DNA of 33,809 bases, taken from NCBI GenBank assembly GCA_024277445.1, contig JAJRVE010000199.1, positions 1 to 33,809 on the forward strand. The letters run 5' to 3'. Shown in pieces: positions 6,334-33,490 of this stretch. The notes under the pieces were generated by a model that worked only from the letters and a program-made list of their open reading frames with translations, was not told where the DNA came from and searched no databases. The DNA is from Campylobacterales bacterium. GTDB taxonomy: Bacteria; Campylobacterota; Campylobacteria; Campylobacterales; Sulfurimonadaceae. Made by a program: the position numbers and the translations under genes. How positions within the stretch are numbered: the stretch's first letter is position 1; each line of letters begins with the position of its first letter.

Positions 6334-7416
6334 TTAGATTTTGACTAAGAACTCTTTGGTGTCATCATAGGTCTTAGCATCCAGGCTAATTGTCAGCTTA
6401 CCTTCTATGATATTTTCCACCACTATAATAGGAGAGAGACTGTAAGCAACAGATAAAAGTTGATGACGTAAGGCTATTTCAGTCTCTATCGGAGGTGTAT
6501 GGAAAATCAGCTCATTGAGTGTTTGGAAATGAGTTTTAGCAAGCTTGTTGTAGTGCTGAAGTGTGATAAAACAGACCTCTTCACGATTCATATAGTAGAC
6601 ATCATTTATGCTGTATTCAACTTTTCCTTGAGCACGTTTACGTGGGAGGTATGAGTAGGCTAGTGCATGTGCAGGGATGACCTGTCTCTTTCCTTTTAGT
6701 AATTTAAAAGAGAATTGACGGTAGTTGAGAAACTTTTGACGAATGATTTTGTAATCAAGACCTTTGTCCTCGAGTACCATACGCTCTTTATACATAGCTA
6801 GACGTTCTTCGATGGAAGCTGGAAGCACTTGGTTAGATATAGGCGAAAACATCTCATCCATAAGTTTATCTTGCTGGTCACGCTGCATCGTCAGTCCGAA
6901 GATACAGCCACAATAGTCTTGACGGTAGAGTTGTTCCTCTTTAGTGACACGACTCTGATCTTGGGTACCGCCATCAGCGCGGTAGTCCACCGCAATAAAC
7001 TCTACACCATTTTTTTCATAAAAGGCATCGCCAACACGTTTGAGCTGTTCTTGTGACTTAAGCGGGGAAACAAGGAGGGTTGTAGTGATCTTTTTTTCGC
7101 CGAGTTCGAGTGCTTTTTCAGCACTGACAGAGAAACGCTTGTCAAAACAGACCTCACAACGTGCCCCTTTTTCAGGCTCTTTTTCTAGTCCACGAACGGC
7201 TTTCATCCAGTTCTCAAAGTCATATTCGCCTTCGAGTAGGTCGATACCCAGTTTTTTACAGCTTCTTTGAACATCCAAATATCGGAGTTGGTACTCAGAG
7301 TAGGGGTGTATGTTTGGATCGTAAAAAAAGCCGGTTAGTTTTTCTTCGGGATAGTCAGCTTGCAGTTTTTCTAAAAAGAAGTGGGAGTCAACAGAACAGC
7401 AGATGTGCACTAACAA
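6334..7416 (-). CDS. queH: Epoxyqueuosine reductase QueH (long form, TTG start)
   Basis: QueH (formerly DUF208) carries out the last step of queuosine synthesis, reducing epoxyqueuosine in tRNA; it is the non-cobalamin alternative to QueG and uses an iron-sulfur cluster. Motifs seen are HICCSVD with Cys6-Cys7, FYDPNIHPYSEY (31-42), CEVC with Cys87 and Cys90, and YCGC with Cys169 and Cys171. The product is 360 residues; roughly residues 180-360 form an extension beyond the core needed for these motifs. The start is TTG at 7416. An in-frame stop lies five codons upstream, so only this TTG or a GTG two codons on can serve, and AAGG stands 7 nt before the TTG. That initiation site lies inside a perfect hairpin (separate entry). 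Confidence 0.93.
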   Translation of the reverse strand: MLVHICCSVDSHFFLEKLQADYPEEKLTGFFYDPNIHPYSEYQLRYLDVQRSCKKLGIDLLEGEYDFENWMKAVRGLEKEPEKGARCEVCFDKRFSVSAEKALELGEKKITTTLLVSPLKSQEQLKRVGDAFYEKNGVEFIAVDYRADGGTQDQSRVTKEEQLYRQDYCGCIFGLTMQRDQQDKLMDEMFSPISNQVLPASIEERLAMYKERMVLEDKGLDYKIIRQKFLNYRQFSFKLLKGKRQVIPAHALAYSYLPRKRAQGKVEYSINDVYYMNREEVCFITLQHYNKLAKTHFQTLNELIFHTPPIETEIALRHQLLSVAYSLSPIIVVENIIEGKLTISLDAKTYDDTKEFLVKI

Positions 7417-7433
7417 GGGAGAGCCTTGTTAGT
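7409..7433 (-). promoter_or_regulatory. Hairpin masking the queH ribosome site and start codon
   Basis: On the mRNA strand ACTAACAAGG, loop CTCTC, CCTTGTTAGT: a perfect 10-bp stem with a 5-nt loop. The 5' arm contains the AAGG ribosome-binding sequence and the 3' arm contains the TTG start codon of queH, so both would be paired. This could reduce or condition translation, for example by temperature, a protein, or coupling to the upstream cyclophilin message. It lacks a U-run, so it is a poor intrinsic terminator. Confidence 0.6.
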
Positions 7434-7439
7434 AATGTT

Positions 7440-7523
7440 GAATTTTAAATGATGAATGATGAATGAAGGTAGGCACGCTTGGCGTGCTGTAATTAATAAT
7501 TTAAAATTCATAATTTAAAATTC
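7440..7523. repeat. AT-rich inverted-repeat element (MITE/REP-like)
   Basis: Ends are GAATTTTAAATGATGAAT (7440-7457) and its inverted partner at 7506-7523, 17 of 18 positions matching, with the outer 11 perfect. The centre holds a GC-rich hairpin GCACGC-TTG-GCGTGC (7473-7487). It fills the gap between queH and the cyclophilin gene. No open frame is present. A related AT-rich sequence is found inside the tviC-like gene at 19333-19364. Confidence 0.6.
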
Positions 7524-7532
7524 GCGAAGCGA

Positions 7533-8024
7533 CTAGCGTGCAGCGAGAATTTCAACTTTCTCAATAACATCTTGACCTGCAAGAGAGTCAAGTACTGCCA
7601 TAGAGTCAGCGTCGTCTTGCTCGATTCCGCCAAATACTGTGTGTACGCCATCTAAGTGAGGACATGGTACGAAACAGATAAAGAACTGTGATCCACCTGT
7701 GTTTGGTCCAGCGTGAGCCATAGAAAGAGTTCCTTTTACGTGACGGCTTGTGTTCTTGTCTGTCTCACAAGCGATCGAGTAACCTGGTCCACCCGTGCCC
7801 GTACCTGTTGGACAACCACCCTGAGCCATAAAACCTGGGATAACACGGTGGAAGCTAAGTCCGTCATAGTAACCATCGTTTACAAGTGAAGCAAAGTTTG
7901 CTACCGTGTTAGGTGTCTCTTCGTTGTAAAGTTTGATCCACATTACACCCTTGTTCGTTGTCATTTTAGCCCATTGAAATGAAGCCATCTCGTCTGCAGA
8001 AAAATCGTATGTCTTAAGTGCCAT
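7533..8024 (-). CDS. Cyclophilin-type peptidyl-prolyl cis-trans isomerase
   Basis: A 163-residue single-domain cyclophilin, which catalyses cis-trans isomerisation of Xaa-Pro bonds. The family core is clear: FHRVIPGFMAQGG (58-70, with Arg60, Phe65 and Gln68 of the active site), GSQFFI (111-116) and HLDGVHTVFG (123-132). The residue equivalent to the cyclosporin-contacting Trp of human CypA is replaced, as is usual in bacterial members. No signal peptide or membrane segment is visible, so it is probably cytoplasmic (PpiB-like rather than PpiA-like). An AAGGA ribosome site precedes the ATG. It is upstream of queH on the same strand, separated by the inverted-repeat element. Confidence 0.95.
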   Translation of the reverse strand: MALKTYDFSADEMASFQWAKMTTNKGVMWIKLYNEETPNTVANFASLVNDGYYDGLSFHRVIPGFMAQGGCPTGTGTGGPGYSIACETDKNTSRHVKGTLSMAHAGPNTGGSQFFICFVPCPHLDGVHTVFGGIEQDDADSMAVLDSLAGQDVIEKVEILAAR

Positions 8025-15354: not shown

Positions 15355-15699
15355 TTAATTAAAATCCAAAATAGCTTGTACCTGTTGTTCAACAGCAATG
15401 AGTTCTTTAGTACTCAAAGAAGCAATTTTAGTGGGAAGTAGTCGTTTGACATCGATTGCACGTATTTGGTCACATAAAAGTTCTGATGTCTCTTGCAAGG
15501 CTTCTCTCCGTGTTACACGTAGCCGTAGTGGATAAGCATCATCAATGAGTTGTGTTGTCAGTGGGACGATAATTACCGTCGTATGGTCTATGTGATTTAA
15601 CATGTCGGTCTGTAGGATGAGAACAGGTCTTGTCTTACCGGGTTCATGACCTTTACTTGGGTAGAGTTTTGCTAGATGTATGTCCCCTCTGCTAAACAT
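15355..15699 (-). CDS. MazF/PemK-family endoribonuclease toxin
   Basis: A 114-residue protein of the MazF/PemK family, toxins that cleave mRNA at short sequences. RGDIHLAKLYPSKGHEPGKTRP at the N-terminus (shown here by its family pattern RGD...GHE..KTRP) carries the catalytic-type Arg24, and IIVPLTTQ carries Thr48/Thr49. Its start overlaps the stop region of the upstream RHH antitoxin by 8 bp, the classic antitoxin-toxin order. The C-terminus runs toward the WecA gene with only 2 bp between stop codons, so the two transcripts converge. The RNA target is unknown. Confidence 0.88.
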   Translation of the reverse strand: MFSRGDIHLAKLYPSKGHEPGKTRPVLILQTDMLNHIDHTTVIIVPLTTQLIDDAYPLRLRVTRREALQETSELLCDQIRAIDVKRLLPTKIASLSTKELIAVEQQVQAILDFN

Positions 15700-15934
15700 T
15701 TGTTAAGCCATCATCTAGAGTACTATCAAATTCTTGAATGGTTTTAATACCTTCTTCTCTAACCAACATGGATGCTTTTTTCATCTGCTCTTTCATCTTC
15801 TTCTTTTGCACGACAAGTTCATACTCACTAATAGAACGACGAATAAGTTCGCTTTTACTGAGATGTAACTGTTTTGCCAGTGCTGTGACTTTGTCAAAAA
15901 AACTGTCATCAGTTTTTAGTGTTATTGTTTTCAT
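15692..15934 (-). CDS. Ribbon-helix-helix antitoxin of the MazF-like toxin
   Basis: An 80-residue protein with an N-terminal MetJ/CopG-type ribbon-helix-helix: a beta strand KTITLKTDDSFFDKV followed by helices AKQLHLSKSELIRRSI. This fold dimerises on palindromic operators; the acidic C-terminal half should wrap the MazF-like toxin. GAGGAAA precedes the ATG by 6 nt. The next gene on the strand overlaps it by 8 bp. A strong promoter and an inverted repeat lie directly upstream, consistent with autorepression, although that is inference. Confidence 0.85.
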   Translation of the reverse strand: MKTITLKTDDSFFDKVTALAKQLHLSKSELIRRSISEYELVVQKKKMKEQMKKASMLVREEGIKTIQEFDSTLDDGLTNV

Positions 15935-17849: not shown

Positions 17850-18140
17850 ATGCAAAGAGATGAAATATTGCATTTTTTAAAAACACACAAACAAGAGATT
17901 CATAGGTTGTTTGGTGTAAAAAAAATGGGACTTTTTGGAAGTTATGCGAGAGAAGAAGCTACACCAGATAGTGATATTGATATTGCTGTTGAAATAGAAA
18001 GCAGTAATAAGTTTCGTAGTTTTTTTACACTCTTACACTATTTAGAAGATAGACTACATAAGAAAGTGGATCTTGGGATTGAGAGTGCGTTAAAGCCAGC
18101 CGCTAAAAAGCAGATATTAAAAGACATTATCTATGTCTGA
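17850..18140 (+). CDS. mntA: Minimal nucleotidyltransferase, MntA-type antitoxin
   Basis: A 96-residue minimal nucleotidyltransferase with the pol-beta signature GSYAR (30-34) and SDID (41-44), whose Asp42 and Asp44 should hold the metal. In studied MntA-HepT pairs this protein AMP-modifies the HEPN toxin and neutralises it. The following HEPN gene overlaps it by 8 bp, the standard order for one common class of this system. It starts 34 bp after tviB with a candidate promoter of its own. Function here is inferred from the motif and pairing. Confidence 0.9.
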   Translation: MQRDEILHFLKTHKQEIHRLFGVKKMGLFGSYAREEATPDSDIDIAVEIESSNKFRSFFTLLHYLEDRLHKKVDLGIESALKPAAKKQILKDIIYV

Positions 18141-18480
18141 ACGTAGTAATAAACTCTATATAGATGATGCATTAGAATCTATAGTTGCGATCAAAGAGTT
18201 TACCCACGGGATTGATTATGAAGAGTTTTATCAAAATCGTATGATCTATTCTGCTACCATCAGAGAATTCATTGTGATTGGTGAAGCTATTTCTAAAGTG
18301 ATTGATAGCTTGAGTGAGGTTCGTCCTGATTATCCTTGGCGAGCTATTAAGGATTTTCGTAACTTTATTGTTCATGAATACTTTGGTGTTGATCCACAGA
18401 TTGTTTGGGATGCGGCTTCTCAAGAATTAGATGAACTTCAAGAAATTATAGAAAAATTTAAAGAAAAAAATGAAAAATAA
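18133..18480 (+). CDS. hepT: HEPN-domain ribonuclease toxin, HepT type
   Basis: A 115-residue all-helical HEPN protein. The RX4HXY active-site motif is present as Arg76-NFIV-His81-E-Tyr83. In related toxins Arg and His are required for RNA cleavage and the Tyr is the residue modified by the MNT partner. It overlaps mntA by 8 bp and the following tviC-like gene by 11 bp, so three unrelated functions appear translationally linked. It is a bona fide full-length member by size, with the motif intact, so there is no sign of decay. Confidence 0.9.
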
Positions 18481-19519
18481 TTCAATATTAGAGGAGATCA
18501 GTTATGCTCTCAATAACACTCCTAAAACGTGGCTAGTCACAGGATGTGCTGGTTTTATAGGTTCTAACCTTATAGAGTTTTTACTCAAGAACAACCAAAA
18601 AGTAGTCGGTCTTGACAACTTTTCTACGGGTTATCAAAAGAACATAGATGAGGCATTAGTCTCTCTCAGTAAAGCACAAAGAGCGAACCTCACCTTTATA
18701 GAGGGAGACATTGCTGACCTTGCTAGCTGTCAAAAAGCGTGTCAAGGAGTTGACATCGTCTTACATCAGGCGGCACTTGGTTCTGTTCCTCGTTCTATCG
18801 CTGACCCCATCACTTCGAACAACTCTAATATTACCGGTTTTCTTAACATGTTGACAGCGGCTAAAGATGCGGGGATAAAACGTTTTGTCTATGCTTCGTC
18901 GAGTTCTGTTTATGGTGATTTGCAAGAGCTTCCAAAGGTAGAAGAGAGAACAGGAAAACTACTGTCGCCTTACGCGGTTATGAAGATGAGTAACGAACTT
19001 TACGCAGGTGTCTTTACTAAGACCTATGGTACTGAGACTATCGGTCTTCGCTACTTTAACGTTTTTGGTAAACGACAAGATCCTGATGGAGCCTACGCAG
19101 CGGTTATCCCTAAGTGGGTAAGCTCACTCATCAAAGGCGAAGCAGTCTACATCAACGGTGATGGGGAGACAAGTCGAGACTTTACCTACATCGCTAATGT
19201 CATCCAGATGAACGTTTTAGCTGGTCTGACAACAAATGAGAACGCTTTTGGCGAAGCCTTTAATGTAGCTGTAGGTGGACGTAACACGCTTAATGAACTC
19301 TACAAGCTTATATCGAGCAGTCTTACAGAGCAATTCAAAATTAAAAATTCATCATTCAAAATTCCTAAAGATCCTGTTTACAGAGACTTTAGGTCTGGCG
19401 ACATCCGCCACTCCAACGCTGACATCACCAAGGCTAGGACACTTGTTGGTTATGTACCGACGCACGATATCTATCAAGGTATGGAAGAGGCGATAGAGTG
19501 GTATGTGGAGCATGTGTAG
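18470..19519 (+). CDS. tviC: UDP-N-acetylglucosamine 4-epimerase (TviC/WbpP type) with repeat-derived insert
   Basis: An extended SDR that interconverts UDP-GlcNAc and UDP-GalNAc, or the uronic acids, supplying the polysaccharide locus with TviB. The 349-residue protein has GCAGFIG (25-31) for NAD, the serine-rich ASSSSVYGD segment, and the catalytic pair Tyr168/Lys172 in [33 protein letters not shown] near the C-terminus (301 on) is typical of the WbpP branch. Just before it, residues 288-299 ([12 protein letters not shown]) are encoded by an AT-rich repeat at 19333-19364; relatives as I remember them have a shorter linker there, so this looks like an in-frame insertion at a surface loop. 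The start overlaps hepT by 11 bp. Confidence 0.92.
19333..19364 (+). repeat. AT-rich repeat unit inside the tviC-like gene
   Basis: Composed of two ATTCAAAATT-type copies around AAAAATTCATC. It is related in motif to the inverted-repeat element at 7440-7523 (its reverse complement begins GAATTTTGAATGATGAAT, 17 of 18 positions the same as the 7440 end). It stays in frame and adds no stop codon. Confidence 0.65.
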
Positions 19520-19605: not shown

Positions 19606-19827
19606 ATGATAATTCAGATAGAGACAAAAGCTGGTATGAGTGAAAAGGTCTTAGATGTTTTGAATGGTTTAAAAGATGTGATTATTGATAAAGTAGAAAT
19701 CAAAGATCAAGCTTTTATAGAAAAACAAAATGAGCTTTTCTCTATTCATGAAAAAGTTGTTACGTCACCAGCTACGCTTAAAAGTCATCAACAGGTTTGG
19801 GATGAGATAGAAAGTCGTACGCGTTGA
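19606..19827 (+). CDS. Putative antitoxin of a RelE-like pair
   Basis: A 73-residue acidic protein with no domain I can name: a predicted strand-helix start (MIIQIETKAGMSEKVLDVL), a second strand (DKVEIKD) and a helical, charged C-terminus. The antitoxin call rests on its position: its stop codon overlaps the TTG start of a RelE/ParE-like gene, and it has a separate candidate promoter. It follows the tviC-like gene by 86 bp. Confidence 0.65.
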   Translation: MIIQIETKAGMSEKVLDVLNGLKDVIIDKVEIKDQAFIEKQNELFSIHEKVVTSPATLKSHQQVWDEIESRTR

Positions 19828-20093
19828 TTATAGAGTATGATGATGAGTTTTCTACAAAGTTTATAAGCATATGGAATTATATTACGCAAGATAGTAAAAC
19901 AAGAGCCAATAGCTTTAAAAAAGATCTAAAAAAAGAGATAGAAAACCTGCCACCATTGCCATACAAGTTCCGAAAATCACGCTGGTTTGACAATGTAGAG
20001 ATTAGAGACCTAATCTTTAAAGGCTACACCATTCCTTATTTGGTGCAAGAAAATAAGATCGTTATCTTAGATATATTTAAATGGACTAAATAA
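19824..20093 (+). CDS. RelE/ParE-superfamily toxin
   Basis: An 89-residue protein with the RelE/ParE layout: strand MIIEYDDEF, two helices (FISIWNYITQDSKTRANSFKKDL), then strands including VEIRDLIFKGYTIPYLVQENKIVILDIF. RelE-type toxins cut ribosome-bound mRNA; ParE-type act on gyrase. The sequence does not decide which. The start is TTG within a TTGA overlap with the antitoxin stop, so translation is probably coupled. No key residue can be checked confidently by eye. Confidence 0.72.
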   Translation: MIIEYDDEFSTKFISIWNYITQDSKTRANSFKKDLKKEIENLPPLPYKFRKSRWFDNVEIRDLIFKGYTIPYLVQENKIVILDIFKWTK

Positions 20094-33023: not shown

Positions 33024-33203
33024 ATGACTGCACCAAAAGTTAGCGCTAAAAAAGTAATTGATTCACTTCCTGATGACAGCTCATACGAAGAGATATTGAA
33101 AGAACTTGCTTTTAATAGAATGATAGAACGTGGTTTAGAAGACTCTAAAAATGGTAAAACAATAACCAATGATGAGATGAAGCATAGAATCAAACAATGG
33201 TAG
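33024..33203 (+). CDS. Small putative antitoxin of the ParE-like module
   Basis: A 59-residue protein I translated directly from the DNA: it begins MTAPKVSAKKVIDSLPDDSS and ends DEMKHRIKQW. The pattern of a short helical N-terminal part (SYEEILKELAFNRMIERGLED) and a charged tail resembles the small antitoxins encoded before ParE/RelE toxins in many bacteria. GAGG precedes the ATG by 7 nt, and the last codons overlap the toxin start (ATGGTAG). No DNA-binding fold is obvious. Confidence 0.8.
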   Translation: MTAPKVSAKKVIDSLPDDSSYEEILKELAFNRMIERGLEDSKNGKTITNDEMKHRIKQW

Positions 33204-33490
33204 CCATACATTGGACCAATGAAGCAGAGCTATGGCTTAGAGATATTCACAGTTATATCGCTAAAGATAGTAAAAGAACTGCTTCAAAAGTTGTTTCAGA
33301 TATCTACAATAAAGTACAGATCTTAAAAAACTTTCCAACGATTGGATATGCCTATGACAAAAGTGAGAAAGACTCCATACGGATATTACTATATGGACAT
33401 TATCGTATAGCATATGTGCTAAAAGAAGGTAACGTGATTGATATTTTAGGTGTATTCCATGGCTCTTTAGATATAGAAAGATATCTATAA
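33197..33490 (+). CDS. ParE/RelE-family toxin
   Basis: A 97-residue plasmid-stabilisation-type toxin: VAIHWTNEAELWLRDIHSYI, then helical KTASKVVSDIYNKVQ-like segment and the C-terminal strands IRILLYGHYRIAYVLKEG and VIDILGVFHGSLD, where RIAY and VFHG are typical of the ParE/RelE superfamily. The start overlaps the antitoxin stop by 7 bp. Whether it targets gyrase or mRNA cannot be told from reading. Confidence 0.87.
   Translation: MVAIHWTNEAELWLRDIHSYIAKDSKRTASKVVSDIYNKVQILKNFPTIGYAYDKSEKDSIRILLYGHYRIAYVLKEGNVIDILGVFHGSLDIERYL

Follow-up and report, generated by a model that had tools for sequence, protein, structure and literature searches.

A hairpin over the queH start site and a short overlapping reading frame through which queH may be coupled to upstream translation

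How can a gene be translated when both its ribosome-binding sequence and its start codon are folded into one perfect hairpin? The question is raised by queH in the window, by which we mean the whole stretch of 33,809 nucleotides analysed here, taken from a fragmented assembly of 2.02 Mb in 232 contigs. The gene (positions 6334 to 7416, minus strand, TTG start at 7416-7414) encodes an epoxyqueuosine reductase of 360 amino acids, QueH, as judged from its matches to Pfam PF02677 (201 bits, E 1.5e-59) and to PDB 7lc5 (E 7e-29). Orthologues of queH are present in 211 of 228 genomes of the family, here termed Sulfurimonadaceae-like, which allowed the start site to be compared across many close relatives.

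The start site of queH and its leader

On the minus strand, positions 7433 to 7409 form a stem of 10 bp with no mismatch, ACTAACAAGG/CCTTGTTAGT, closed by a CTCTC loop (MFE -11.6 kcal/mol, z-score -6.95 against shuffled sequences). The AAGG core of a Shine-Dalgarno (SD) sequence lies in the 5' arm (7424-7427, minus strand), 7 nt upstream of the TTG, which itself lies in the opposite arm. The first-pass annotation had described this arrangement, and the sequence agrees with it. It also agrees on the surroundings of the start: the HICC motif follows directly, the in-frame stop upstream is a TAA within the 5' arm of the hairpin, and the next in-frame alternative is a GTG at 7410-7408. The 3' arm belongs to the coding sequence of queH, in which it specifies Met-Leu-Val. 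Stems of such length are not rare in the window, where two perfect stems of at least 10 bp with loops of 3-8 nt were observed against 0-3 in eight shuffles; what exceeds chance is the position over the start codon, together with the recurrence in relatives.

The gene upstream and co-directional with queH is ppi (7533-8024, minus strand), encoding a cyclophilin-type peptidyl-prolyl isomerase (Pfam PF00160), and the gap between the two genes is 116 nt. Besides the start-site hairpin, the leader is predicted to form a long imperfect stem (7440-7523, minus strand; arms 7499-7523 and 7440-7464), whose 3' arm consists of degenerate CATTCAT heptads, and an inner small hairpin, GCACGC-CAA-GCGTGC (7473-7487, minus strand). 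Over its 144 nt the leader as a whole has a fold z-score of -5.5. A sigma-70 consensus scan of the minus strand of the gap, which is weak evidence, found no promoter-like site for queH. The hairpin was also considered as an intrinsic terminator and rejected, as no U tract follows it and the sole terminator-like site lies inside ppi.

The region between ppi and queH takes other forms elsewhere. In L085 and L088 it carries a terminator-like stem (GAGGCTTCGGCCTC, then T-rich sequence), queH starts with GTG and the leader with hairpin and upstream frame is absent. In several Sulfurimonas genomes (loci L129, L211 and L151) it contains a short conserved peptide-like stretch, approximately LSPxGVALVRGxIK. 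As a separate observation, the window holds toxin-antitoxin-type genes around a polysaccharide cluster, at 15355-15934, 17850-18480, 19824-20093 and 33197-33490; the set comprises a PemK/MazF-like gene with a ribbon-helix-helix partner, a nucleotidyltransferase with a HepT-like gene, and two ParE-like genes.

Recurrence of the hairpin and an overlapping reading frame

We folded the region from -25 to +12 of 158 distinct queH loci, with dinucleotide shuffles as the reference. Ranked by z-score, the seven strongest folds belong to L032, L005, L145 (the locus of the window), L183, L031, L185 and L205, with L066 in tenth place. These eight loci are spread over genera g1, g7, g8 and g10, and in each of them ppi lies 97-129 nt upstream. 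Similarly, among 319 gene starts in stretches of related genomes, queH accounts for six of the seven lowest fold z-scores. These comparisons indicate that the position of the hairpin at the start site is not due to chance, and the recurrence of such folds across genera supports the earlier suggestion that an occluded ribosome site and start make the translation of queH conditional.

The leader structure is two-part in all 11 species that have such a leader, and the pairing at the start site is strong in eight of them. L051 and L014 show weak pairing. L003, whose QueH hardly differs from that of L031 on the tree, has a different leader with a small stem that covers only the SD. The first-pass annotation had held that an ATG start or missing pairing in relatives would speak against it, and this was partly found: L005, L185 and L205 start with ATG, but inside a hairpin, while the stem is lost in the close relative L003. 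It had also proposed a search for covarying pairs. Column by column the outcome was weak: 77% of cells are paired against 72% in shuffles (a level reached in none of 500) and no more than 50% when the structure is slid, and double changes show no excess over chance (180 of 500 shuffles). Part of the reason is the coding role of the 3' arm, which specifies Met-Leu-Val. In addition, column counts miss L005 and L185, where the ATG lies within a perfect hairpin of other sequence (CATCGGGA/TCCCGATG) that pairs in another register. The support comes instead from replacement of the hairpin as a whole.

The first-pass annotation had missed an open reading frame (hereafter uORF) of 33 codons, MNFKLLITARQACLPSFIIHHLKFNITNKALPC, that runs from an ATG at 7511 to a UAG at 7412-7410 (7410-7511, minus strand). 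Lying in frame +1 relative to queH, it shares 7 nt with the gene and ends 4 nt into it, and the 5' arm and loop of the hairpin form its final codons. A uORF of 24-38 codons with its ATG 68-110 nt upstream of queH and its UAG at +4 is found in frame +1 in all 11 leaders; frame 0 has no such uORF, and frame +2 has one in a single leader. Shuffling each leader gave P values of 0.004-0.13, with a product of about 1e-15.8 that is overstated since the species are related; moreover, open frames arise more easily in these pyrimidine-rich, stop-poor leaders. We consider a comparison of gene pairs to be the stronger support for the uORF. It covered co-directional pairs with a gap of 60-200 nt in stretches from leader-bearing genomes, counting uORFs of at least 60 nt, and among the 53 comparable pairs a frame +1 uORF occurs in nine of nine queH pairs and in none of the 44 others.

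By our own reading of the leaders, an SD-like sequence precedes the uORF ATG in eight of the 11 species; no clear ribosome site was found before it in the window, L032 or L003. The AUG of the window uORF lies in the 5' arm of the long upstream stem and is predicted to be paired there (unpaired probability 0.02). A conserved leader peptide can be rejected: between the window and L032 the uORF differs 5, 7 and 5 times at codon positions 1, 2 and 3, an equal divergence, and 13 of its codon differences are non-synonymous against one synonymous. As the frame nevertheless stays open, the feature that has been kept is an open frame ending at the queH start. A leader peptide that senses queuosine was rejected as well, because His, Asn, Asp and Tyr codons are not enriched in the window uORF (5 of 33, against 16% in queH).

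Translational coupling as a probable explanation, and alternative readings

The hairpin, the uORF, the geometry of their overlap and its recurrence can all be read directly from the sequences. We consider translation of queH by coupling to the short overlapping uORF to be the best explanation of these features and, on balance, a probable one. On a transcript presumably shared by ppi and queH, the stable hairpin would hold the ribosome site and the TTG of queH. A ribosome translating the uORF would unwind the hairpin and terminate at the UAG 4 nt inside queH, whereupon the same or a new ribosome may initiate at the TTG. It would be the act of translation that matters rather than the peptide, and queH translation would be kept low and dependent on translation upstream. 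The leaders have two features expected of such an arrangement, namely an upstream frame that ends at or near the downstream start (UAG at +4, in 11 of 11 species) and a downstream ribosome site and start enclosed in structure (strongly so in eight of 11). Coupling through the unfolding of RNA has been established in other systems (PMC12548453).

The alternative that survives best is a plain down-tuning, in which hairpin and TTG hold queH translation constantly low and the frame of the uORF is incidental. It is compatible with a uORF that lacks an SD in the window and encodes no conserved peptide, and with the fact that most of the family has a weak queH start by other means. We nevertheless regard it as rather unlikely, given that the uORF is in frame +1 in every leader, in frame 0 in none, and absent from the 44 comparable gene pairs. 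A stem of -11.6 kcal/mol with no device to open it would, moreover, nearly silence queH, as the work of de Smit and van Duin is said to indicate.

It is improbable that the pattern is a by-product of repeats, that is, that dispersed heptad or inverted repeats built the leader and that hairpin and frame arose by chance. In its favour, degenerate CATTCAC heptads make up the long stem of several leaders, arrays of heptads are scattered through the genus, and intergenic regions elsewhere contain stretches with weak similarity to the leader. However, the 3' arm of the hairpin belongs to the coding sequence of queH, so that a 5' arm matching it was required; the pattern is also seen in L051, L066, L183 and L014, whose leaders, like those of g8 and g7, do not resemble heptad arrays; and in each genome tested (G002, G014 and G031) the whole leader is present in a single copy. 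With respect to the repeats themselves, (CCATTCA)n arrays were observed in G002 and G000, with more than 160 pattern matches in G002. A related AT-rich repeat is located in the window at 19331-19366, seemingly in frame inside an epimerase gene (18470-19519).

The first-pass annotation had suggested an RNA switch or a thermosensor, and neither suggestion fared well. An RNA switch would imply that a metabolite, a small RNA or a protein opens the hairpin. Riboswitches are known elsewhere from queuosine synthesis, the pathway in which QueH acts, and the two-part structured leader of all 11 species would suit such a device. An Rfam search of the window, however, returned only two tRNAs above thresholds and no known riboswitch (preQ1 or other), and close relatives share almost none of the leader sequence, which has no conserved core resembling an aptamer, so that we give this reading slightly less credence than the origin from repeats. 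A thermosensor, for which the enclosure of ribosome site and start in one hairpin might speak, is most improbable and was rejected, since in four of the five species examined the stem is predicted to remain paired up to about 75 °C, outside the physiological temperature range, and that of the window has no mismatch near the ribosome site.

Start codons of queH in the family and comparison with known systems

Coupling to the uORF would concern the species with such a leader, and the start of queH is unusual far beyond them. Across 138 distinct loci in the family, the position homologous to the window TTG is occupied by ATG (70), ATT (29), ATC (22), TTG (12), GTG (3) or ATA (2), all of them recognised bacterial start codons. 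Thus, queH appears to start with AUU, AUC or AUA at 53 of the 138 loci (for example L011, L126, L127, L132, L157, L164, L191, L193 and L204), and at 44 of these 53 there is no in-frame ATG, GTG or TTG upstream before a stop. Of the 53 AUU/AUC/AUA starts, 51 are preceded at 5-8 nt by an AGG-type SD core, compared with 16 of the 70 AUG starts (Fisher P 1e-17), and phylogenetically independent pairs give the same picture (a mean of 6.3 agree and 0.0 disagree; median P 0.03). In a scan that left out overlapping ORFs, the conserved N-terminus began at least 15 codons ahead of the first ATG/GTG/TTG in 34 of 78 queH genes, where this codon can lie more than 180 codons in, and in one of 491 neighbouring genes from 17 families. 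Control genes (clpX, mreB, ppi, fabZ) nearly always have ATG with an SD, lpxA being less clear. On a tree made by a fast method, the start of queH toggles between AUG and AUU/AUC 19 times, at least 12 of these changes being forced by supported branches. Close coupling to ppi was rejected as the cause of AUU rather than AUG, because independent pairs show no consistent association. Apart from queH, infC, which encodes IF3, has an apparent TTG start adjoining the stop of the upstream gene in all 10 genomes examined (L276-L285).

Because of the trade-off between SD and start codon, it is tempting to suggest, with somewhat less than even confidence, that selection holds the initiation of queH at a low set point throughout the family and that a strengthened component is offset by a weaker one. 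Three interchangeable devices may serve this end, and we put them forward equally tentatively: AUU, AUC or AUA preceded by a good SD; an AUG that lacks an SD and often adjoins the stop codon of ppi; and SD and start within a hairpin opened by an overlapping uORF. Alternatively, a neutral history of mutually permissive weak sites is possible. We regard the hairpin of the window as one of several means by which the family may hold the initiation of queH at a weak level, in this case with probable coupling to a uORF. If this is correct, dozens of closely related species would supply a natural range of weak starts in a single tRNA-modification gene, on which the trade-off between start codon, Shine-Dalgarno sequence and RNA structure could be tested directly. 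Gene finders limited to ATG, GTG and TTG would also misplace the queH start in many Sulfurimonas genomes, in some by more than 100 codons downstream, with loss of the essential HICC motif; current gene finders probably do place starts of the AUU/AUC/AUA type far downstream.

Conserved AUU/AUA starts with a strong SD have been described for infC and pcnB of E. coli (as cited in PMC1780047) and for infC, cvfC1 and ccpN of S. aureus (PMC13009471); our searches of open-licence papers turned up no description of queH with a non-AUG start. The queH genes of many relatives likewise appear to combine AUU, AUC or AUA with a well-placed SD. In contrast to starts of the infC/pcnB type, queH of the window uses UUG and the start in the family toggles between AUG and AUU/AUC. 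The hairpin and uORF are reminiscent of coupled gene pairs in which structure occludes the ribosome site, such as VII-IX of phage f1, coat-lysis of MS2 and rpmI-rplT of E. coli (PMC12548453): there, too, a structured downstream start can be opened by upstream translation, with stop and start overlapping or close. In the case of queH, however, the upstream frame is a uORF of 24-38 codons whose peptide is not conserved, and the coupling is predicted. Regulatory uORFs of the attenuation type, such as that of E. coli topAI-yjhQ, similarly consist of a short frame beside an inhibitory RNA structure (PMC12121999). In contrast to these, the uORF of queH has neither a conserved peptide nor stall codons, and it extends across the hairpin and into the start codon of the gene that it may control.
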